49,143 bases of DNA from Acidobacteria bacterium RIFCSPLOWO2_12_FULL_66_21. Lineage in GTDB: Bacteria > Acidobacteriota > Vicinamibacteria > Vicinamibacterales > 2-12-FULL-66-21. The notes beneath the pieces are model-generated. The model saw nothing but the letters and a program-made list of their open reading frames with translations. It made no database searches and was not told where the DNA came from. This document shows, piece by piece, positions 4,153-29,924 of this stretch. Both the position numbers and the translations under genes were made by a program. Location: the NCBI GenBank assembly GCA_001767455.1, contig MELC01000064.1, positions 1 to 49,143 on the forward strand, given 5' to 3'. How positions within the stretch are numbered: position 1 is the first letter of the stretch; every line of letters starts with the position of its first letter.

Positions 4153-4261
4153 CGAACTAGCTCCCAGTTTCCGGCTTCCAGTTGCCAGCTTTCCGGTTCC
4201 CCCTCCGAAGCTGGAAGCTGGAAGCTGGGAGCTGGGAGCTGGGAGCTGGAAACCACCTGCT
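4153..4261. repeat. Inverted word-repeat spacer (CAGCT / AGCTGG)
   Basis: The left arm (4158-4197) has CTCCCAGTTTCCGG, CTTCCAG and TTGCCAGC words. The right arm (4206-4252) repeats AGCTGGAAGCTGGGAGCTGGG. It lies between boxB and boxC on the same strand and can form a hairpin in their joint transcript. Confidence 0.75.
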
Positions 4262-8650: not shown

Positions 8651-8716
8651 GGTCAAACCCCAGTCTGACCCCGGTCTGACCCCGGTCTGACCCCGGTGCG
8701 ACCCCGGTCTGACCCC
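8651..8716. repeat. Six 11-bp tandem repeats (GGTCTGACCCC)
   Basis: Six adjacent 11-bp units starting at 8651, 8662, 8673, 8684, 8695 and 8706. Three are exactly GGTCTGACCCC; the others differ by one to two bases. Each unit contains the near-palindrome GGTCTGACC. The period equals about one helical turn. The array fills the gap between the esterase start and the end of the MBL-fold gene. Confidence 0.9.
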
Positions 8717-8723
8717 GGCGGCC

Positions 8724-9432: not shown

Positions 9433-9440
9433 AGTATAAT
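9433..9440. promoter_or_regulatory. Superposed divergent -10 boxes (lipA / MBL hydrolase)
   Basis: The sequence AGTATAAT reads TATAAT on the plus strand (9435-9440, toward lipA) and TATACT on the minus strand (9438-9433, toward the MBL gene). The two -10 boxes overlap by four bases, the arrangement of symmetrical bidirectional promoters. lipA would then have a leader of about 105 bases that includes the 20-bp tandem repeats. Confidence 0.55.
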
Positions 9441-9520
9441 GAAAGGTGCTGAGGGGTGCTGAAAGGTGCTGAGGGGTGCTGAAAGGTGCTGAGGGGTGCT
9501 GAAAGGTGCTGAGGGGTGAT
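9441..9520. repeat. Four 20-bp tandem repeats in the lipA leader
   Basis: The unit GAAAGGTGCTGAGGGGTGCT occurs at 9441, 9461, 9481 and 9501; the last copy has a single change. A degenerate continuation runs to about 9530. The complement of the same word (CACCTCTCAGCACC) ends the window at 49126-49143. Confidence 0.95.
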
Positions 9521-9551
9521 CAGGGGTGCTCGCCAGGACGATAGACGACGC

Positions 9552-10475
9552 ATGACGACCGCTCCATTGACGTTCCACCGGGGCCGGAAGAAACGGGCTG
9601 ACGAGCTGCCACGGCAGGCGAAGCCCGAGTGGCTGAAGGTTCGGGCGCCAGGCTCGGAGAACTACCACCGGCTCAAGGGGCTGAGGCGCACGCTCGGACT
9701 GCACACGGTCTGCGAAGAAGCCAACTGCCCCAACATCGGCGAGTGCTGGCACCACGGTACCGCCACGTTCATGATCCTCGGCGACACCTGCACGCGCTCG
9801 TGCGGCTACTGCAACGTGCTGCACGGCACGCCGAAGCCGGCGGACCAGGACGAACCCGTGAAAGTCGCGAGCGCGATCCAGTCGATGGATCTGGAGTACG
9901 TCGTGGTCACCTCGGTCGACCGCGACGATCTCGCGGATTGCGGCGCCTCGCACTTTGCGCGCACGATCGCGGAGACGCGCGCGCGCGTGCCGCGGTGCCG
10001 CATCGAAGTGCTCATCCCCGATTTCAAGGGTGACGAAGCGTCGCTCCGCACCGTGCTGGATGCGCGGCCCGATATCCTGAACCACAACATCGAGACCGTG
10101 CCACGCCTGTATCGGATGGCCCGGCCCGGCGGCCGCTACGCCCGCGCGCTGGAATTGCTCGACCGCGCGCGCACCTATGCCCCGGCCGTCCCCACGAAAT
10201 CCGGGTTGATGGTCGGCCTCGGGGAAGAGTGGGACGAGGTCGTCGCGACGCTGCACGACCTCCGCGCCGCTGGCTGCCAAATCGTCACCATCGGCCAGTA
10301 CCTCCGCCCGTCTCTCGCCAACCTGCCCATGACGCGGTACTACTCACCCGGCGAGTTCGCCGAGCTGAAGCGGCTCGGGCTCGAGCTGGGCTTCGGGCAC
10401 GTCGAGTCCGGCCCGCTCGTCCGGAGTTCGTACCACGCACACGAACAATCTCAGTCGCTAGTCGATAGTCGATAG
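9552..10475 (+). CDS. lipA: Lipoyl synthase
   Basis: A 307-residue radical-SAM enzyme that inserts two sulfurs into octanoyl groups on lipoyl domains. It shows both cluster motifs: the auxiliary CxxxxCxxxxxC (C54, C59, C65 in CEEANCPNIGEC) and the SAM CxxxCxxC (C80, C84, C87 in CTRSCGYC). The terminal serine ligand lies in VRSSYHA near the end. ATG 9552 gives the usual N-terminus; an ATG at 9516 would add repeat-encoded residues. The last seven or so residues (QSLVDSR) and the stop are encoded by the word repeat GTCGATAGTCGATAG, so the repeat has shaped the C-terminus. It faces the lpd-aceF-aceE operon, whose E2 needs its product. Confidence 0.97.
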   Translation: MTTAPLTFHRGRKKRADELPRQAKPEWLKVRAPGSENYHRLKGLRRTLGLHTVCEEANCPNIGECWHHGTATFMILGDTCTRSCGYCNVLHGTPKPADQDEPVKVASAIQSMDLEYVVVTSVDRDDLADCGASHFARTIAETRARVPRCRIEVLIPDFKGDEASLRTVLDARPDILNHNIETVPRLYRMARPGGRYARALELLDRARTYAPAVPTKSGLMVGLGEEWDEVVATLHDLRAAGCQIVTIGQYLRPSLANLPMTRYYSPGEFAELKRLGLELGFGHVESGPLVRSSYHAHEQSQSLVDSR

Positions 10476-10594
10476 TCAGAATCACGAAGTCAAAGTCACA
10501 AAGTCCACGTCACAGGCGCCAACCCCGGCTTGGACTCGTGTGACTTCGACTGCGTGACTTCGACTGCGTGTGACTTTGACTCGTGTGACTTTGA
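10476..10594. repeat. Inverted word-repeat between convergent lipA and lpd
   Basis: The left arm (10457-10510) reads AGTCGATAGTCGATAGTC, CACGAAGTCAAAGTCAC. The right arm (10548-10607) reads the complement: GTGACTTCGACTGC (twice), GTGTGACTTTGACT (twice) and ACTATCGACTATCG. The core holds GGCGCCAACCCCGGCTTGG. It would fold into a long hairpin on both converging transcripts and may serve as a bidirectional terminator, although no T-run is present. Confidence 0.8.
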
Positions 10595-12082
10595 CTATCG
10601 ACTATCGCGTCTGGGCCGATAGATGTGCGTGGCGTGGCCGAAGAACACGTCGGCCGCTTCCATGAAGGTCTCGGACAGCGTCGGATGGGCGTGGATGCTG
10701 AGGCTGACATCCTCGGCGCTCGCGCCCATCTCGACGGCGAGCACCCCCTCGGCAATCATCTCGCCCGCTCCGCGACCCACGATCCCCACGCCAAGCACGC
10801 GGCCCGACGTCGGATCCAGTACCAGCTTCGTGAGCCCGTCGGTCCGATCGATGGTAATCGCACGGCCCGAGGCCGCCCACGGGAATCGCGTCACGGCGAC
10901 CTCGCGCTTCTGCTGCTGCGCGTCGTTCTCCGTGAGGCCGCACCACGCCAGCTCGGGATCGGTGAAGACGACGGCGGGAATCGCGAGGGGTTCGAAGGCG
11001 GTCTTCCGGCCGGCGATCGCGTCGACGGCGACCCGCGCCTCGTGCGAGGCCTTGTGCGCGAGCATCGGCTCTCCGGCCACATCGCCAATCGCGTAGATGG
11101 ACGGCTCCGCCGTCCGCCGGCTGCCGTCCACTTCGATGAAGCCCCGCGGGGTCATCTTGACAGCGGTACGATCGAGGCCCGGCACGTCGCCATTCGGCCG
11201 GCGCCCGATCGCCACGAGCACGCGTTCGAACGTCCGCTCCTTCGGCTCCCCTCCCCCCTGGCCTGAGCCTGTCGAAGGCTGGCCCGAGCCTGTCGAAGGC
11301 TGGCCTGAGCCTGTCGAAGGTTCGAGCGTCACGGCAATACCGCCCTTCACCTCTTTGATCCCCACGACCTTGGTGTCGAGCAGCACCGCGTCGGTGATCC
11401 GCTCGATGCGCTTCGCGAGAACGTTGACGAGATCGCGGTCCGCGCCGGGCAGCAGGCCGCCGGTCATTTCCACGACCGTGACCCTGGTGCCGAGGGCCGC
11501 GTAGACACTGCCCAGCTCGAGGCCGATGTAGCCGCCGCCGACCACGAGCAGCGACGCCGGGACGTCGGGCAACTCCAGCGCGGCGGTCGAGTCCATCACG
11601 CGCGGGCTGTCGACGGAGAGTCCCGGAATGGTCGTCGGACGCGAGCCGGTGGCGACGATCGCGTGCTCGAAGGTGAGCGTCTCGGCCTGCTTCTCCCCGT
11701 CCCTGGTGATCTCCAGGGTCCGCGCGTCGCGAAACGCCGCGCGCCCCTGCACGTAGGTGATCTTGCGCTGCTTCGACAACTGGCCGAGACCCCCGGTGAG
11801 CCGATCGACCACCTTCGACTTGAACGCGCGCAGGCGATCCACGTCGATCGACGGCGCGCCGAACGACACCCCCCACGCCTCTGCGTGCTTCGCCTCGTTG
11901 ACGACGCCGGCGACGTGCAGCAGCGCCTTTGACGGGATACAGCCGCGATACAGGCAGACGCCGCCGGGATTGACGGCCGGATCGATGAGGGTCACTCGCA
12001 GGCCGCGGTCCGCGGCATAGAAGGCGGCCGCATAGCCGCCGGGGCCGGCTCCGATCACGACAACTTGGGTCGACAGAGACAT
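10595..12082 (-). CDS. lpd: Dihydrolipoyl dehydrogenase (E3) with a repeat-encoded loop
   Basis: A 495-residue flavoprotein disulfide reductase, the E3 of the adjacent PDH complex. FAD motif VVVIGAGPGGYAA (7-19), redox pair C43/C48 in GVCLYRGC, NAD motif VVGGGYIGLE (180-189), AIGRRPN, and the C-terminal acid-base motif HAHPTLSE. Residues 255-275 are three copies of PSTGSGQ encoded by three 21-bp units (11258-11320); this stretch is absent from ordinary E3 proteins and falls in a loop of the NAD domain. ATG 12082 gives the standard N-terminus; the upstream ATG/GTG region is word repeat. Third gene of the aceE-aceF-lpd operon. Confidence 0.96.
   Translation of the reverse strand: MSLSTQVVVIGAGPGGYAAAFYAADRGLRVTLIDPAVNPGGVCLYRGCIPSKALLHVAGVVNEAKHAEAWGVSFGAPSIDVDRLRAFKSKVVDRLTGGLGQLSKQRKITYVQGRAAFRDARTLEITRDGEKQAETLTFEHAIVATGSRPTTIPGLSVDSPRVMDSTAALELPDVPASLLVVGGGYIGLELGSVYAALGTRVTVVEMTGGLLPGADRDLVNVLAKRIERITDAVLLDTKVVGIKEVKGGIAVTLEPSTGSGQPSTGSGQPSTGSGQGGGEPKERTFERVLVAIGRRPNGDVPGLDRTAVKMTPRGFIEVDGSRRTAEPSIYAIGDVAGEPMLAHKASHEARVAVDAIAGRKTAFEPLAIPAVVFTDPELAWCGLTENDAQQQKREVAVTRFPWAASGRAITIDRTDGLTKLVLDPTSGRVLGVGIVGRGAGEMIAEGVLAVEMGASAEDVSLSIHAHPTLSETFMEAADVFFGHATHIYRPRRDSR
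11258..11320. repeat. Three 21-bp in-frame repeats within lpd
   Basis: Units of CTGGCCTGAGCCTGTCGAAGG-type sequence at 11258, 11279 and 11300; the middle copy has one change. The length is a multiple of three, so each copy adds seven residues. The word CCTGAGCCTGTCG also occurs at 27453-27470 inside the start of the YpdA-like gene. Confidence 0.93.
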
Positions 12083-12248
12083 GACGTTGACAACTCCAAA
12101 CGCCAAACGCCAAACTCCAAATAGACTACAAACTCCAAAACGTCAAACGCCCACCGCCAACCGCCAACCGCCCAGAATTGCATGTTTCCGTTTGGGATTC
12201 GAAGTTTGAAGTCTGGAATTTGGAGTTTGGAATTTTGAGTTTGGAGTT
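12083..12248. repeat. Inverted word-repeat between aceF and lpd
   Basis: The left arm (12090-12165) repeats CCAAACTCCAAA, CCAAACGCCAAACG and CCAACCGCCAACCG. The right arm (12187-12247) repeats TTTGGAGTTTGG and TTTGAAGT. This is the same family as 975-1145 and again lies between cotranscribed genes. Confidence 0.8.
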
Positions 12249-13688: not shown

Positions 13689-13940
13689 TTCAGTCGTCTT
13701 CCTGTCTTGAGGGCACGGAGGTGACGGAGGACACGGAGCAAACCCTCGCACGGAGGCGCGGAGATCACGGAGACGCACGGGGCTGCCCGCCACGGCCGGT
13801 CTGGCGCCGGCCATTGGTTGCCTGGCCGGCGTTGTGAGACGGTCCCAGTCACGAGCTGCGAGCCGCGAGCTGCGAAACTCCGTGCTCCTCCGTCTCTCCG
13901 TGTCTCCGTGTGATCGTCTCCGCGGCCTCCGTCGCCTCCG
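13689..13940. repeat. Composite inverted-repeat element, CACGGAG type
   Basis: Outer arms: CACGGAGGTGACGGAGGACACGGAG words (13710-13780) against CTCCGTGCTCCTCCGTCTCTCCGTG words (13880-13940). The core contains a perfect 9-bp hairpin, CGCCGGCCA (13805-13813) and TGGCCGGCG (13823-13831), plus GAGCTGCGAGCCGCGAGCTGC at 13853-13873. No gene seen. It resembles the elements at 18650-18870 and 19740-20015. Confidence 0.75.
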
Positions 13941-16616
<2,676 letters not shown>

Positions 16617-18602: not shown

Positions 18603-18908
18603 AATACTGGCGTCAGCCGCCGCACCGCTGCACGCGCCGACGGTCTTGCGTCACGAAGGACATGAAGGACACGAAGACGGATCCCGCTCGTGATGCAGGG
18701 TGCCATCGAGCGCCGGCCCCGTGGAGTTCTTGGGCCGGCGTCGCAGGACGCGCGTCGCGCGGCTCGATGGCACCCCGCCACGCGACAGCCGCCAGCGTGC
18801 GCCACATCTTCTTCTGATCAGTCTTCGTGTGCTTCGTGTGCTTCGTGTGCTTCGTGCCGTGGGCCGTGGTCAGGGGGGGCGTGAGGGTGTACAGCCAGCG
18901 AATCTGAA
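18603..18908. repeat. Composite inverted-repeat element, CACGAAG type
   Basis: Outer arms: GTCACGAAGGACATGAAGGACACGAAG (18651-18677) against CTTCGTGTG words repeated four times (18823-18860). Inside lies a perfect 14-bp inverted repeat, GGGTGCCATCGAGC (18698-18711) and GCTCGATGGCACCC (18762-18775). It encloses a second perfect hairpin, GCCGGCCC (18712-18719) and GGGCCGGC (18732-18739), and the 10-bp palindrome GACGCGCGTC. No gene seen. Confidence 0.85.
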
Positions 18909-19718
18909 TCAGGCCATCGAGCCGACGACGCTGACGGCGATGTCCGGTCGATCGGTGATGATCGCCGACACGCCCCATCGCACCAGCCGTCGGATGTCGT
19001 CCGCGTCGTCGACTGTCCAAACTTTCACCGGGATGCCCGCGCGACGCGCGTGCGCGATGAAGCGGGGGGAGATGATCCTGGTGCGCCCTGAGGCCTCCGG
19101 CACCTGCAGCTCGCGGTAGGCGGTGGCGCCGAGCGGCCAGCGCACCCACGATCGGTAGAGCGCCCAGCGCGCTTCCTCGCGCGACGCGCCCGTGGGAATC
19201 CGCGGCTCGTACCTGCGCGCGGCGTGCAGGACGCGCCAGCCGAACGAGCCCAGCGAGACGCGATCCAGCGCGCTCGCGCGGCGCACTTCGTCAATCGTGC
19301 GATGCGCGAGCTCGGGCTCGTTGACCTTCAGTTCGATGATGAGCGGGACGTTCGTGTAGCGGGCCAGGACGTCACGCAATCTTGGGATCCGGAAACCGGC
19401 GCCGCGAAACGGACACGGCGCCGGATCCGGCGTCAGCGGCTGAAAGCGATACCCGGCATCCAGGCGCGCCAGCTCGTCGGCGGTGTGGTCGGCGAGCGCC
19501 CCGGTTCCGTCGGTCGTCCGATCCAGTGTCCGGTCGTGGTGGATCACCACGACGCCGTCGCGCGAGAGGTGCACATCGAATTCGAGCGCGTCCGCTCCCA
19601 CCGCAAGCCCGTGATCGAAAGCGGCAATCGTGTTCTCCGGCCGCAGGCGCGCGCCGCCGCGATGCGCGTACACGAGCGGCCGGGTCACGCCGGCTGGCGG
19701 ATGGGTTGGGGGGAACAC
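18909..19718 (-). CDS. Glycerophosphodiester phosphodiesterase
   Basis: A 269-residue GDPD/UgpQ-type TIM-barrel enzyme that cleaves glycerophosphodiesters to glycerol-3-phosphate and an alcohol. It shows YAHRGGARLRPENT (catalytic H and metal-binding region), LEFDVHLSRDGVVVIHHD and RTTDGTG near the N-terminus, all hallmark motifs, and the C-terminal KVWTVDDADD. No signal peptide is seen, so it is probably cytoplasmic. The start is GTG 19718, six bases after a TAAGAT hexamer (19730-19725), suggesting a leaderless mRNA. The gene is flanked on both sides by branched inverted-repeat elements. Confidence 0.94.
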   Translation of the reverse strand: MFPPTHPPAGVTRPLVYAHRGGARLRPENTIAAFDHGLAVGADALEFDVHLSRDGVVVIHHDRTLDRTTDGTGALADHTADELARLDAGYRFQPLTPDPAPCPFRGAGFRIPRLRDVLARYTNVPLIIELKVNEPELAHRTIDEVRRASALDRVSLGSFGWRVLHAARRYEPRIPTGASREEARWALYRSWVRWPLGATAYRELQVPEASGRTRIISPRFIAHARRAGIPVKVWTVDDADDIRRLVRWGVSAIITDRPDIAVSVVGSMA

Positions 19719-20035
19719 ATGCGCATCTTACCCCGGGAGCGCGCGGAGAACCGGGAGCACGCGGAGACAGGATCACACGGAGACACGGAGCTCACGGAGA
19801 CGCACGGAGGAGGGGCGGCTGGCTCCGCCGCGCTCCGCGCGGTGAGGCGATCTGAGATCGCCTCCAGCGCCGGCCACGGACGTCAAAGAGGCCGGCGCGC
19901 AGCCAGCCGCCCGCATCCGCCGGCTGAGCAGTTCCTCCGTGCTCCCCCGTGCACTCCGTGCCTCCGTCCAAAGGTTGTGCTCCGTGGCCACCGTCTTCTC
20001 CGTGGACTCCCAAACCCCGGTGGTAATATCGATGA
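19719..20035. repeat. Composite branched inverted-repeat element, CACGGAG type
   Basis: Outer arms: GAGAACCGGGAGCACGCGGAGACA and CACGGAGACACGGAG words (19740-19810) against CTCCGTGCTCCCCCGTG words (19934-20010). Inner stem GGCGGCTGGCT (19814-19824) pairs perfectly with AGCCAGCCGCC (19901-19911). That stem encloses hairpin GAGGCGATCT/AGATCGCCTC (19844-19864), hairpin GCGCCGGCC/GGCCGGCGC (19867-19898) and a smaller CCGCG/CGCGG hairpin near 19827. The result is a multi-branch junction. No coding frame is convincing. Confidence 0.85.
20024..20029 (+). promoter_or_regulatory. -10-like TAATAT six bases before the ATPase ATG
   Basis: TAATAT is followed by six bases and the ATG at 20036, so transcription would begin at or next to the start codon. 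The spacing is the same as at 28183-28188, 28850-28855, 44294-44299 and 19725-19730. Confidence 0.5.
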
Positions 20036-21568
20036 ATGTCATCCGCTGCCGTCCGTCCCACCACCCTCGGCGAATTGCGCGCGGCGGTCGAGCGCGGCCA
20101 GATCCGCCGCCGCTCCGTGAAGGATGAAGTCCGCGAGAACCTGATCGCGCGGCTGCGGATGAAGGCACCGATCTTCCCCGGCATCATCGGGTACGACGAG
20201 AGCGTGATCCCGCAGATCGTCAACGCGATCCTGTCGCGCCACAACTTCATTCTGCTCGGACTGCGCGGGCAGGCGAAGAGCCGCATCCTCCGCGCGCTGA
20301 CCACGCTGCTGGACGAGGAGATCCCCGTGGTCCCCGGCTGCGAAATCCACGACGACCCGCTCGCGCCGCTGTGCGCCGCGTGCCGCGCGCGCGTGCGGGC
20401 CGAAGGGGACGCGCTGAGGGTCGCCTGGCTCGGGCGCGACGCGCGGTACGTCGAGAAGCTCGCGACGCCCGACGTCACGATCGCGGACATGATTGGCGAC
20501 CTGGATCCGATCAAGGCCGTCCGCGCCGGCCTGCATCTCTCCGACGAGCTGACGATCCATTACGGACTGTTGCCCAGGGCCAACCGCGGCATCTTCGCGA
20601 TCAACGAGCTGCCGGACCTCGCGGGCAAGATCCAGGTCGGCCTGTTCAACGTCCTCCAGGAAGGGGACGTCCAGATCAAGGGCTACCCGGTGCGGCTGCC
20701 GCTCGACGTCCTCGTGGCGTTCAGCGCGAACCCGGAGGACTACACCGCGCGCGGCAAGATCATCACGCCGCTCAAGGACCGGATCGGGTCCGAGATTCGC
20801 ACGCACTATCCCGTGACGCGCGGCCACGCGATGGCGATTACCGCGCAGGAAGCCTGGCTGCAGCGGCACGCCGGAGGCGCCGATCACCCGGTGGTGCAGA
20901 TCCCCGAGTTCGTGCGCGAGCTCGTCGAGGAGGTCGCGTTCCAGGCCCGGCAGGACGCCAAGGTCGATCGCCGCTCGGGCGTGAGCCAGCGGCTGCCGAT
21001 CTCGCTGCTCGAGAACGTCGTGTCGAACGCGGAGCGCCGCGCGCTCGTCGCGGGCGAATCGATCTCGGTCCCGCGCGTCACCGACATCTACGCCGCGCTG
21101 CCCGCCATCACCGGGAAATTCGAGCTGGAGTACGAGGGGGAGCTGCGGGGCGCGGACAACGTCGCGCGCGACATCATCCGCTCGGCCGTCGGGAGCATCT
21201 TCAGCGGCTATTTCGCCGGCGCCGATCTGCAACAGGTCACCGAGTGGTTCGATCTCGGCGGCACGCTGCACATCGACGACACGCTGGACGCGCGCGAGCT
21301 GCTCGCGCGGACCCAACAGGTGCAGGGGCTGCTCGAGCTGGTCGGTCAAATCGGGATCGGCACGGACACGCCACCGCCGGTCGTCGCCTCTGCCGTCGAT
21401 TTCATTCTCGAAGGGCTCTACGCGCTGAAGAAGATCAGCCGCACGGACGAATGGCAGTACCAGGGCGCGGAGCCCGCGCGCCGGCCGATCCGCGCCGCGG
21501 CGCCAGACCCGACGCTCGATCGCGAGCTGCCGCTGACGGGGACGTCGAAGAAGAAGTACTACAACTGA
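20036..21568 (+). CDS. MoxR/magnesium-chelatase-type AAA+ ATPase
   Basis: A 510-residue AAA+ protein. Walker A is GLRGQAKS (75-82). The Walker B position reads [10 protein letters not shown] (186-195), with Asn in place of the usual Asp before the Glu. [12 protein letters not shown] is the sensor-type motif of the chelatase-I clade. Three cysteines and a histidine at 102-116 (CEIHDD, CAAC) form a possible small metal site inserted after Walker A. It precedes a vWA protein on the same strand, the standard MoxR-vWA pairing in which the ATPase remodels or loads metal into a client. The client is unknown. No Shine-Dalgarno site is visible; the ATG lies six bases after TAATAT. Confidence 0.88.
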
Positions 21569-21570
21569 CG

Positions 21571-21810
21571 CTGAGGCAGCCCTGAAGGGCTGCGCTACGG
21601 CTGAGGCAGCCCTGAAGGGCTGCGCCGCGGGTGAGGCAGCCCTGAAGGGCTGCACTACGGCTGAGGCAGCCCTGAAGGGCTGCGCCGCGGGTGAGGCAGC
21701 CCTGAAGGGCTGCGCCGCGGGTGAGGCAGCCCTGAAGGGCTGCGCCGCGAGTGAGGCAGCCCTGAAGGGCTGCGCCGCGGGTGAGGCAGCCCTGAAGGGC
21801 TCCGCTACTC
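21571..21810. repeat. Eight 30-bp tandem palindromic (REP-type) repeats
   Basis: Eight adjacent units of exactly 30 bp start at 21571, 21601, 21631, 21661, 21691, 21721, 21751 and 21781. Each contains GCAGCCCTGAAGGGCTGC, a 7-bp stem with a TGAA loop. Only the linker (GCTACGG/CGCCGCGGG) and the last copy vary. A ninth, inverted-sense palindrome (GCAGGGCTTCAGCCCTGC) follows at 21826-21843. The array separates the ATPase from its vWA partner. There are no unique spacers, so it is not a CRISPR. Confidence 0.95.
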
Positions 21811-23155: not shown

Positions 23156-23401
23156 TCGTCATTGCCGACTGGCGATTGCAGAGTGCCGATTGACGGGTTG
23201 TCGATTGGTGAGTGCCGATCGACGGATTGCTGATTTCCGATTGGGGGGAACATGATAGAGAGCTGGGCATCAGCGGGCGCCGTCCAACGTGGCTCACCAT
23301 TCGCCAATCGCCAATCCGTCGATCGGAAATCGGCATTCGTCAATCCGTCAATCGGCAATCGCCAATCGCCAATCGGCAATCGGCAATTGACGTAGACAGA
23401 G
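23156..23401. repeat. Inverted word-repeat (CGATTG / CAATCG)
   Basis: The left arm (23163-23247) repeats GATTGCAGAGTGCCGATTGACGG-type words. The right arm (23288-23391) repeats the complement: CGCCAATCGCCAATCC and CAATCGGCAATCG. The core (23248-23287) is unique. It would fold into a hairpin of about 230 bases between the vWA and LON genes. No gene is seen here. Confidence 0.85.
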
Positions 23402-25219: not shown

Positions 25220-26107
25220 TTACACGTTGGTCGTGTCGATCGAGGCGTGATCCAGCCACGCGCGGATCGTGTTGATGTCCACGCCCGCGCGGAGTAACTG
25301 CGTCGCGGTCGTGTGTCGGATGACGTGCGGGCTGATCGTTTTCTTGGCGAGCGTTGGGCATACGATGGCGGCGTCGGTCACATACCGTGTGACGGTCGCG
25401 TGCACGACAAACCGCGTGACGGGCATTCGCCGCCGGTTACGGAACACGGGCTCGTCCGGCGATCGTCCTGACGTCAGCGCCAGCAGCGACGTCATGGTCG
25501 TGGGCCAGAGCGGACAGTGTCGTGTCTTCCCTCCCTTGCCGACGAGCCGCACCGAGCCAGACCCATCAGATCGAACGTCGAGATCGCGAATGGAGACGGC
25601 CGCGGCCTCGCTGGCGCGCGCGCCGGTGTTGTAAAGGAACAACAGGACGCCGTGATCCCGACGGCCTTGCTCGGTCGTGCGGTCCGGAGCGGCCAGGAGC
25701 GCGTCGATCTCGGGCTTGTCGAGGTAGCACAGGCTCGGCCGGTCGTATCGTTTGAACGGCACGGCACGGACCTCGCCGCACCAGGGAATCAACTCCCGGC
25801 AGCGCTCGCCGACGAACGTCGCGAGCGCATGGATCGCGGCTAATCGCTGATTGCGCGTCCTGACGCCACAGCCGCGGCGCTCTTCGACGTGACGAAGAAA
25901 GCCGCGCACCACATCTGCCGACACCTCGGTCACGACCAACCGATCGACGGCCGTCCTGTGGCGATCGGCCGCAAACGGGATCAAGAGTCGAAGCGTGTCC
26001 CGATAGCTGCGCTGGGTATTGCGGGAGAGGTTGCGTTCCACGACGAGATGCTCGAGGAGGAACCGACGGACCCAGCTGCCCAGCGGTACGCCGTCATGCG
26101 TCTTCAT
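25220..26107 (-). pseudogene. Tyrosine recombinase truncated at the nucleophile (RIT-like, downstream member)
   Basis: A recombinase fragment of 295 codons with an N-terminal SAM-like domain (SRNTQRSYRDTLRLLIPF) and a catalytic domain with TGARASEAA (Arg I), SPHVIRHTTATQLL (His-x-x-Arg II) and IRAWLDHASIDTTN. The frame stops at DTTNV-TAA, exactly where the tyrosine of the TTNxY motif should be. The following DNA continues into the orphan gene in another frame, so this is a rearrangement junction rather than only a point mutation. The ATG overlaps the end of the upstream recombinase by 14 bases, the tandem-overlap layout of recombinase-in-trio (RIT) elements. Confidence 0.8.
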
Positions 26108-28951: not shown

Positions 28952-29800
28952 TCAGTACTTGTAGAAGCCCTGCCCCGATTTCCGGCCGGTCCGGCCGGCG
29001 AGCACCATGCGCTTGAGAAGCGGCGGCGGCGCATACGCCGGCTCGCGGTACTCCTCGAACATGATGTTCGCGATGTAGTAGGTCGTGTCCAGGCCGACGA
29101 AGTCGAGCAGCGTGAAGGGCCCCATCGGGTAGCCGCATCCGAGCTTCATTCCCTTGTCGATGTCCTCGATCGTGCCGAGCCCGTGCTCGTACGACCGAAT
29201 CGCGTCGAGCAGATACGGAACGAGCAGCCGGTTCACGATGAACCCGGGCTTGTCCGGCGCGGTGATCGGCTCCTTGCCGAGCGACTGCGCGAACGCAAAC
29301 GTCTTCTGATAGGTGTCGTCGCTCGTCGACAGGCCGCGGATGACTTCCACCAGCTTCATCAGCGGGACCGGATTGAAGAAGTGCAGGCCCCCAAACCGGT
29401 CGGGCCGCTTCGTCTTCGACGCCAGCTCGGTGATGCAGAGCGACGACGTGTTCGAGCAGAAGATCGCGTCGGCGCCCACCAGCGCGTCGAGCGCCGCGAA
29501 CGCCTTCGTCTTCTCCTCGACGTTCTCGATGATCGCCTCGACGATCAGATCGCAGTCCTTCAACCCCTCGAAGCCGGTCGTGCCCGACAGATTGCCGAGC
29601 GTCGTGTTCTTCGCCTCCTCGGTCACCTTGCCCTTCGCAACGCCGTCGGTCAGGAACTTCTGAATCCGCCCCATGCCGCGGTCGAGAAAGCCCTGCTCGA
29701 CTTCGCGCACGATCGTCTTGTACCCTGCCGCCGCCGACACCTGCGCAATGCCCGAGCCCATGAGGCCGCAACCCAAAACGCCAACAGTCTTGATAGCCAT
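28952..29800 (-). CDS. 3-Hydroxyacyl-CoA (3-hydroxybutyryl-CoA) dehydrogenase
   Basis: A 282-residue single-domain-pair enzyme (Hbd/PaaH size) that oxidises L-3-hydroxyacyl-CoA with NAD. It has GVLGCGLMGSGIAQ (NAD motif), CSNTSSLCI, GLHFFNPVPLMKLVEV (catalytic His), DKPGFIVNRLL and GCGYPMGPFTLLDFVGLD. It precedes a thiolase on the same strand, 124 bases away across a REP pair, which makes a beta-oxidation or acetoacetyl-CoA role likely. A role in 3-hydroxyadipyl-CoA oxidation after the box pathway is possible. AGAGG lies about eight bases before the ATG. Confidence 0.95.
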   Translation of the reverse strand: MAIKTVGVLGCGLMGSGIAQVSAAAGYKTIVREVEQGFLDRGMGRIQKFLTDGVAKGKVTEEAKNTTLGNLSGTTGFEGLKDCDLIVEAIIENVEEKTKAFAALDALVGADAIFCSNTSSLCITELASKTKRPDRFGGLHFFNPVPLMKLVEVIRGLSTSDDTYQKTFAFAQSLGKEPITAPDKPGFIVNRLLVPYLLDAIRSYEHGLGTIEDIDKGMKLGCGYPMGPFTLLDFVGLDTTYYIANIMFEEYREPAYAPPPLLKRMVLAGRTGRKSGQGFYKY

Positions 29801-29816
29801 TTCGTACCTCTATGAA

Positions 29817-29895
29817 GGCAGCCCTGAAGGGCTGCGCAACAGATCTCGCGGTGTCTCGAGAACTACGTGATGTTGCGCAGCCCTTTAGGGCTGCC
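29817..29895. repeat. 25-bp inverted REP pair
   Basis: A 25-base arm (29817-29841, containing GGCAGCCCTGAAGGGCTGCG) and its complement (29871-29895) differ at one base, around a 29-base core. Each arm is itself a palindrome, so the pair can form one long stem or two hairpins. A third partial copy (CAGGGCTGCCGTGGATCTT) follows at 29908. It belongs to the family of 21571-21810. Confidence 0.9.
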
Positions 29896-29924
29896 GTGGA
29901 TCTTTTCAGGGCTGCCGTGGATCT

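Follow-up and report, generated by a model that had tools for sequence, protein, structure and literature searches.

Introduction

In the hairpin telomeres of AAV-type viruses, short sites for protein binding are repeated in tandem along a stem from which side hairpins branch; these telomeres are viral, have two such side hairpins and work with an HUH Rep protein. Among bacterial palindromes, the REP (GTAG/CGTC) measures 20-40 bp and carries a GTAG or CGTC tag that stays unpaired, and Acidobacteria are named among the published hosts of REP/RAYT/TIRtron systems in the excerpted text of the same source (PMC3733652). MITEs have been proposed from a PD-(D/E)XK_2 element in Thiomargarita, a family different from GxxExxY (PMC4853749, in excerpt). 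Arrays of much shorter units have also been described between genes, namely the heptamers GGGAATC in Xanthomonas (PMC4692102) and TAACTGA in Beggiatoaceae (PMC4679880); the Xanthomonas heptamers often form inverted pairs (70 and 75 cases; PMC4692102), and the available portions of both papers discuss G-quadruplexes, slippage and regulation (PMC4692102, PMC4679880).

Here we compare with these systems a palindromic element in a window of 49,143 nucleotides, the whole stretch of DNA that was analysed (contig MELC01000064.1 of Acidobacteria bacterium RIFCSPLOWO2_12_FULL_66_21). Probably, if by no means certainly, the element is a palindromic mobile DNA element in a gene-less, MITE-like form, derived from elements that encode a GxxExxY protein.

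Results

A cloverleaf between inverted arrays of short units

The element occupies ~280 bp between two genes (Table 1), to the second of which Pfam assigns no more than a marginal Sigma54_activat match (20.4 bits against a cut-off of 20.2). Its two outer arms are separated by ~120 bases, and their best ungapped pairing, 19777-19811 with 19933-19967, is 83% complementary. Between them, the strand GGCGGCTGGCT (19814-19824) pairs perfectly with AGCCAGCCGCC (19901-19911) and closes a core of three hairpins. The arms, perfect stem and three hairpins thus lie exactly where a preliminary description, made from the sequence, had placed them, with the stem 12 bp rather than 11 bp long. Four of the seven pairs of hairpin 1 are invariant among 28 copies, and hairpin 2, shortened in the window, is much longer in full copies, where it includes a conserved CAARCA/TGYTTG portion. 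The window copy was absent from the training sets of both covariance models used below; R1 recovered it (Table 1), as did R2 (57.6 bits).

Table 1. Positions of the element, its parts, related elements and neighbouring genes in the window
Feature	Position	Strand	Detail
Left outer arm, degenerate 8-9-nt CACGGAG units (outer units CGCGGAG)	19733..19809	+	arm-pattern exact match at 19776-19807
Closing stem, 5' side, 12 bp	19813..19824	+	
Cloverleaf core	19817..19908	+	model R1: 70.8 bits, E 4.3e-14 (window), 5.7e-12 (genome)
Hairpin 1, CCGCGC-TCC-GCGCGG, 3-nt loop	19828..19842	+	CCGCGC 19828-19833 / GCGCGG 19837-19842
Hairpin 2, shortened here	19844..19864	+	10-bp arms 19844-19853/19855-19864, one-base loop
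Hairpin 3, GCGCCGGCC...GGCCGGCGC	19867..19898	+	9-bp arms 19867-19875/19890-19898
Closing stem, 3' side	19901..19912	+	
Right outer arm, CTCCGTG units, inverted relative to left arm	19932..20012	+	pattern match 19937-19968, 3 mismatches
Second element	18652..18856	-	CACGAAG arm 18652-18676; CTTCGTG arm 18823-18856
Third, decayed element	13709..13953	-	CACGGAG arms 13709-13786 / 13878-13953
Glycerophosphodiester phosphodiesterase gene (GDPD, PF03009), divergent	18909..19718	-	outside the element
MoxR-like gene (per the preliminary description)	20036..21568	+	outside the element

RNA folding of 19730-20015 gave -182.3 kcal/mol on the plus strand (z -9.9) and -196 on the minus strand (z -10.2), and none of 200 dinucleotide shuffles was as good on either strand, in agreement with the earlier claim that such an arrangement is not expected by chance. 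The core alone (19810-19915) also folded better than shuffled sequence, with z -5.9 under RNA parameters and z -6.2 under DNA parameters. Across the whole window, Rfam returned 0 matches at gathering score and a tRNA search found none.

The preliminary description had missed that the element is repeated, even within the window, which holds a second cloverleaf and a decayed third copy. The core of the second, at 18700-18773 on the minus strand (R1, 38.3 bits), lacks hairpin 2. The likely core remnant of the third (13794-13845) scores 23.1 bits, which is within the window background (a 24.0-bit match lies at 29791-29917), so this call rests on its arms and on reading of the sequence.

Several other features of the window were recorded. 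A tyrosine recombinase gene (PF00589, PF02899) lies at 25220-26107, ~5 kb from the element. Tandem arrays include an 11-bp unit ACCCCGGTCTG repeated 5.6 times (8657-8718), a 20-bp unit TGAAAGGTGCTGAGGGGTGC (9440-9530) and, 3' of the MoxR-like gene, 7.8 copies of a 30-bp unit TGAGGCAGCCCTGAAGGGCTGCGCCGCGGG (21572-21805). An array related to this last unit interrupts hairpin 2 of an element copy elsewhere in the genome (L148, G000:C72:21647).

Dispersed intergenic copies in the host genome

The window's own genome (G000; 6,475,179 bases in 91 contigs) yielded 64 matches in a DNA search, the best at 92% identity across query 1-60. Model R1, built from 14 full copies in this genome other than the window copy, identified at least 49 distinct places at E≤1e-3, training copies included; this count, obtained by merging 96 rows at E≤1 by hand, is a floor, since 150 of 11,923 candidates were scored. 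A search for the arm pattern with up to three mismatches returned 39 forward and 39 reverse places, mostly as facing pairs, and the reversed control returned 0; some of these places are other arrays rather than elements (for example, three on contig C19).

The copies share an architecture of arms, a variable spacer, a closing stem (often GCCGGTCTGG/CCAGACCGGC) and three hairpins, of which the first is CCGCGC..GCGCGG, the second is long and the third is CGCCGGCC..GGCCGGCG. Besides the shortened hairpin 2 of the window copy, further deletions occur in other copies. Two subfamilies could be distinguished: one combines CACGGAG arms with a GGTCTGG-type stem; in the other, the arms consist of CACGAAG units, the stem is of the GTGCCGTCGAG type and hairpin 2 differs. 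The coupling is imperfect, as one copy (L053) joins CACGAAG arms to a core closer to the first type. At L010/L035 (G000:C29:73504-73661), CACGAAG units form the left side and CTCCGTG units the right, which gives this copy the look of a recombinant between the subfamilies.

Judged against our own codon-usage gene calls, 55 of 58 copies lie outside called ORFs (L061 overlaps one), and many fill nearly the whole gap between two genes. The 52 copies with a called neighbour on both sides (six of the 58 were omitted for want of one, and the ORF-overlapping L061 was retained) sit in 29 tandem, 13 convergent and 10 divergent gaps, similar to the 83 tandem, 29 convergent and 36 divergent gaps of at least 100 bp in the genome (p 0.62). 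With no preferred gene arrangement, the element behaves neither as a typical terminator nor as a regulator of one gene.

Patchy distribution and lineage-specific presence

Within the family, R1 matched 7 of 12 genomes at E≤1e-4 in a patchy manner, with 38 rows in G010, 12 in G001 and none in the complete genome G008. In these genomes, the same cloverleaf recurs between arms of other units (CGCAGAG, CACGGAT and AACGAAG types), in largely different sequence. The single hit in G007 (L085), one of the seven, does not on reading resemble the cloverleaf family. Across the order, R1 matched 8 of 162 genomes at E≤1e-9; a phylum-wide search with R2, in which eight candidates were scored per genome, so that its result is a floor of low sensitivity, matched at least 6 of 396 genomes, with matches confined to this order. 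Two closely similar gene-less elements lie 0.3 kb apart in direct orientation in G010 (L087 and L092; G010:C38:128889-129501).

The GDPD/MoxR-like gap allowed the orthologous site to be compared. By eye, the element was not found in the 520 bases upstream of the MoxR-like gene in nine other family genomes, and on this ground a conserved regulator of that gene was rejected as a candidate. In L159 and L165, where the gap is short, it reads CATCTTA, 17 nt, GGTAATAT; in G000, the element sits between CATCTTA and GGTAATAT. G001 holds a different inverted array, of GTTCACG units, in the same gap. A second site was provided by an element in G079 that contains a GxxExxY gene: its right flank was found in 7 of 8 other genomes of the genus at 84-88% identity, with matches beginning at query 1824-1831. 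At that point, G078 has a gene-less CACGGAG pair and G080 a period-7 array, and neither array nor pair was seen by eye in 420 bases of the other five flank-bearing genomes. Insertion here means lineage-specific presence, as read from comparison of orthologous sites, and not movement seen. Both edges are bracketed at the GDPD/MoxR-like locus and the right edge at the G079 locus, with flanks too diverged for a target duplication to be read from them.

The different arrays that occupy one and the same gap (GTTCACG arms in G001, the period-7 array in G080), together with the variation of arm unit and length between copies, would fit an origin in which slippage and template switching built up the palindromes and arrays where they now stand. 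We regard such non-mobile growth as highly improbable, because dispersed copies share sequence beyond structure, as in the best DNA match above, and because arm unit, closing stem and hairpin 2 mostly travel together in two subfamilies.

Pairing appears constrained as palindromic DNA

Alignment of the 14 full copies (window copy excluded) revealed changes on both sides in 21 of 55 consensus pairs, and a sequence-only alignment of 28 cores from six genomes revealed them in 38 of 51. In the latter, 281 cells were changed on both sides, compared with 86 in shuffles and at most 55 with partners slid, and 91.0% of cells were paired, compared with 72.5% in shuffles and 30-42% with partners slid; the structure was derived from the same alignment and is therefore favoured over its slid versions, but the effect is nevertheless large. 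The preliminary description had proposed folding both strands against shuffled controls and seeking compensatory changes with a covariance model in related genomes, and had held that shuffled-like energy or absent covariation would speak against it; with z near -10 and compensatory changes found, the outcome favours a real structure. These changes could stem partly from template-switch repair of palindromes.

The type of mismatch bears on whether the structure acts as DNA or RNA. Single-stranded RNA structure should tolerate G.U more than A.C. Among 47 copies, Watson-Crick pairs made up 95.2% of paired cells, and the remainder comprised 30 G.T, 36 A.C and 52 others; for each copy a single strand was counted, which left 47 of 78 aligned matches, nine of 56 sources, all shortened copies, had no match at its threshold, and the underlying alignment (A2) was fitted to the R1 structure and so leans toward pairing. 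That G.T and A.C are equally rare makes the constraint look like that of palindromic DNA rather than of a single RNA strand. In 24 copies in tandem context, the transcribed strand showed 15 G.U against 11 A.C (p 0.56), and cores were oriented with the genes in 16 and against them in 8 (p 0.15). Two column pairs of hairpin 2 in alignment A1 form an exception of their own, being mostly A.C or G.T within near-perfect stems: 50/93 in 9 of 14 copies and 60/83 in 13 of 14. The latter pair belongs to the conserved CAARCA/TGYTTG portion, and in alignment A3 it is A.C or G.T in 16 of the 28 cores.

Very low folding energy, strong covariation and the many copies that nearly fill an intergenic gap are all features expected of a structured RNA, be it a cis-regulator, a terminator or a processed RNA of a neighbouring transcript. 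We nonetheless rejected this candidate as very unlikely, given that no Rfam family matches in the window, that wobble pairs show no strand bias even on the transcribed strand, that gene junction types resemble those of the genome, and that the element is not conserved at the MoxR-like gene.

GxxExxY nuclease genes lie between arms of the same kind

Scanning named genomes for CACGGAG arms returned at least 115 stretches from many phyla. The interiors between CACGGAG or CACGAAG arms from other taxa (27 of the matches listed) differ widely; L200 and L233 hold a GxxExxY gene between their arms, and an HMM detected such a gene in 6 of 234 loci fetched by arm patterns.

Genes of PF13366 (GxxExxY, a PD-(D/E)XK nuclease family) occur in 62 of 162 genomes of the order, and their flanks were compared with those of PF05635 and Y1_Tnp genes and of random windows. 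Inverted repeats scoring at least 36 flank 34 of 48 GxxExxY genes, 42 of 49 PF05635 genes, 8 of 17 Y1_Tnp genes and 2 of 200 random windows. Arrays resembling C[AG]CNRA[GT] stand on both sides of 23 of 48 GxxExxY genes (25 of the 48 thus miss this strict test), 0 of 49 PF05635, 0 of 17 Y1 and 0 of 100 random windows, whereas period-7 arrays flank 0 of 48, 20 of 49, 0 of 17 and 0 of 100, respectively; thresholds and unit expression were set after both families' flanks had been viewed, so these counts describe rather than predict. A lag measure assigned period 8 or 9 to 12 of the 34 strong GxxExxY inverted repeats and no period to 22, and period 7 to 35 of the 42 strong PF05635 repeats. For these tests we dropped GxxExxY row L443, which duplicated the gene of L431, a further one of the 49 then left that had less than 100 bp of flank, one duplicate PF05635 row (L484, the same gene as L468; kept in the core search, hence 50 loci for 49 genes) and four of 21 Y1 loci at contig ends; the arm-type test used the first 100 of the 200 random windows.

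The cloverleaf itself also occurs at these genes. Model R2, built from gene-less cores only, found cores at E≤2e-5 in 9 of 49 GxxExxY loci and in 0 of 50 PF05635 loci (p 0.0012; best PF05635 match E 4.6e-4), leaving 40 of 49 GxxExxY loci with none at that threshold. Four of the nine have a core on each side of the gene; seven come from genomes that contributed no training sequence and the other two from G010. In 400 kb of other G000 sequence, R2 gave two cores at E≤1e-4. In the phylum search, which was blind to the gene, 3 of 9 listed cores outside G000 fall within 200 bp of a GxxExxY gene (G079:C13, G079:C5 and G082:C22), for which a simple length argument puts chance at ~2e-7. A crude scan for cloverleaves by fold alone gave no separation, with 6 of 48 GxxExxY, 2 of 49 PF05635, 2 of 17 Y1 and 6 of 100 random windows positive (p 0.20).

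In G010, the arm of a locus with both a GxxExxY gene and its own core (L432) aligns with 7 of 10 gene-less arms of the same genome over 35-85 nt, and most of these alignments include AACGGAT..CGAAGCAACG. Such shared arms are consistent with mobilisation in trans by a parental enzyme.

GxxExxY matches were also present in eight records of a plasmid collection, and arms of this kind were seen in all four inspected: CCACAGAGGACGCAGAGGACACGGAGG..CTCTGTGACCTCTGTGTCCTCTGTGG after radA in a Bacteroides finegoldii record, CACGCGAAGGCGCGAGGACGCGAAG..CTTCGCGGCTTCGCGTG between fabD and fabG in a Sphingomonas parapaucimobilis record, CACAGAGA..CTCTGTG in a Bernardetia record, and a small CGCAGAG-unit palindrome on each side of the gene in a Gemmatirosa record. 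Phage records gave no GxxExxY match and viral contigs no confirmed relative.

Two other partners could be envisaged. The palindromes might be mobile through a host enzyme or another transposase, with GxxExxY a passenger such as a defence nuclease. Consistent with this, the search of G000 and G001, which both have cores, gave neither a GxxExxY hit at E≤1e-10 nor a first-look candidate, and the gene is scarce between arms, being held by one (L200) of the 27 interiors from other taxa and by the six HMM-positive loci above; G008 has three GxxExxY genes, yet no core match. Against it, arm type in the loci tested tracks protein family without overlap (the 23 of 48 and 0 of 49 above, with period-7 arrays at 0 of 48 and 20 of 49), and one would not expect arm sequence to depend on a passenger, so that we hold a passenger role to be unlikely.

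The other envisaged partner is a Y1 (HUH) transposase of the RAYT/TIRYT group, which would make this a REP-type element. The element is palindromic, intergenic and of high copy number, Y1_Tnp genes occur in 10 of 12 family genomes, and the excerpted part of PMC3733652 includes acidobacterial genes among published TIR-flanked Y1 genes. Paired arms of the element type were, however, found at 0 of 21 Y1 loci in a first scan and 0 of 17 in a second, 8 of the 17 have strong inverted repeats of their own, and G001 contains cores with no Y1_Tnp match; a Y1 partner was rejected accordingly and appears scarcely probable.

GxxExxY has a predicted nuclease fold

Across 41 GxxExxY sequences, six residues (G13, E18, D58, K70, N99 and F100) never vary, and E68, Q82 and Y86 are close to invariant. 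Of these, D58, E68, K70, Q82 and Y86 fit the arrangement D...ExK...QxxxY, which we take to be the active site of a RecB/Cas4-type PD-(D/E)XK nuclease. A structure model from five sequences reached a middling pLDDT of 76; its best structural match, with a Foldseek E of 0.01, was Cas4 SSO0001 (Z 9.2, rmsd 3.8 over 98 residues). Foldseek gave nothing at E 0.001 or better, and a PDB sequence search with the protein returned no match. The model supports a nuclease fold, and activity is predicted. An Hjc-like resolvase was discarded as the nearest fold, as Hjc scored lower (Z 7.0), in the middling range among other matches. Because Cas4 outranks Hjc, cutting of junctions by GxxExxY is something we infer.

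PF05635 genes lie between heptamer arrays

In the PF05635 loci (L452-L501; four-helix-bundle, 23S rRNA IVP), inverted arrays of exact 7-mers flank the gene, and none of the 50 loci has an rRNA match. G000 has a copy of the gene in L482. PF05635 with its 7-mer arms looks like a second, parallel element family, one that may explain intergenic heptamer repeats. In the excerpted text of PMC4990558, the Coxiella IVS is reported to have three tandem heptamers ahead of the S23p ORF, which fits the 7-mer arms found here.

The window also contains inverted pairs, mostly of period 7, at 984-1126, 4159-4247, 10463-10607, 12092-12248 and 23161-23380, with units such as AACTCCA/TGGAGTT and GAAGCTG; no PF05635 gene was noticed inside these five pairs. 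To the eye, the unit at 4159-4247 is similar to the arms around the G000 copy of the PF05635 gene.

Discussion

Our analysis presents the element as one of many dispersed copies of a DNA cloverleaf, for which we infer both mobility and a role of the GxxExxY nuclease. The preliminary description had left open a structured RNA or a hairpin mobile element; the mobile half has gained from the dispersed copies, the empty site in the nine relatives compared and the arms around nuclease genes, and the RNA half has lost ground to the lack of an Rfam match in the window, the 30 G.T against 36 A.C and the lack of a tie to one gene or one gene arrangement. With no gene in the window copy and none detected in G000, only a gene-less derivative is possible, and the window copy would be a relic, or else its mover is something that the analysis did not find. 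That no GxxExxY gene was detected in G000 is the main weakness of the explanation.

A plausible mechanism can be outlined. Exposure as single-stranded DNA during replication, or cruciform extrusion, would let the closing stem and the three hairpins form a four-way DNA junction standing on a long stem built of repeat units. The GxxExxY nuclease would bind the array of its own 8-9-nt units and cut at or near the junction or at the base of the stem, and cutting would start excision, copying or insertion into intergenic gaps, with gene-less copies either moved in trans or left as relics. Arms and core would then be constrained at the level of DNA, through recognition and possibly through correction of the palindrome by template switching, rather than as RNA of a neighbouring gene; such correction could add to the clean pairing.

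A wider generalization is more tentative, and we hold it as somewhat less probable than its opposite: a superfamily of bacterial mobile elements that end in inverted arrays of a short degenerate unit instead of a fixed terminal repeat, each kind of array being recognised by its own small protein. GxxExxY nucleases would read 8-9-mers, in some lineages together with a DNA cloverleaf cut as a four-way junction, PF05635 proteins would read exact 7-mers, and gene-less copies of both would make up much of the intergenic excess of heptamers and near-heptamers. If this is true, GxxExxY and PF05635, named by a motif or by one old context, gain a role as partners of element ends, and a RecB/Cas4-like nuclease acting on a DNA four-way junction joins the known modes of moving DNA. 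It also offers a testable answer to the abundance of bacterial intergenic 7-9-nt arrays, often inverted pairs. For annotation, elements that sit between promoters and genes or in operon gaps are easily mistaken for terminators or RNAs.

The preliminary description knew of no named family, and none was found for the element in the open-licence literature either. Judged by title and the opening of the abstract, none of the texts found there on GxxExxY, PF13366, PDDEXK_3 or TIGR04256 concerns repeats, and searches on the arm strings, on repeats of cloverleaf or palindromic form and on proteins of the four-helix-bundle or IVP kind gave no recognised account of the element. Arms of the same kind around the gene of a likely nuclease suggest a kind of mobile element without a description found in that literature.

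Comparison with known systems

MITEs are the closest parallel, being short, gene-less and dispersed, with inverted termini and with relatives that carry a gene between similar termini, and the window element is likewise gene-less, with many dispersed copies and inverted ends. Unlike MITEs, it ends in degenerate 8-9-mer arrays rather than in one terminal inverted repeat, its interior is a four-way junction, and its gene partner is a small PD-(D/E)XK protein rather than a DDE or HUH transposase. REP, BIME and REPIN sequences with RAYT, and TIRtrons, resemble it in being palindromes between genes and in their association with a small enzyme gene, which they adjoin or surround, but the element is much longer, forms a cloverleaf, has a partner of another enzyme fold and has no Y1 gene with such arms among the loci tested; its three hairpins in a closed junction inside arms, over ~280 bp, fall outside the definition of a REP. 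The 23S rRNA IVS with S23/IVP (PF05635) similarly places an inverted-repeat stem around a small ORF. The element differs from PF05635 arrays in its 8-9-mers, as opposed to exact 7-mers, and the 50 PF05635 loci contain no R2 core at E≤1e-5; moreover, the ~120 bases between its arms leave no room for a PF05635 ORF, so the window element is not a 23S rRNA IVS. Its likeness to the AAV-type telomeres is an analogy only. The Xanthomonas and Beggiatoaceae heptamers share with it the character of unexplained intergenic short-unit arrays, often inverted pairs in Xanthomonas, but have a unit length of 7 and, in the available portions of both papers, no proposed gene partner (PMC4692102, PMC4679880). Among the GxxExxY-associated arm elements, a class defined here, the window copy has both the arms and the cloverleaf and stands as a member without a gene between its arms.
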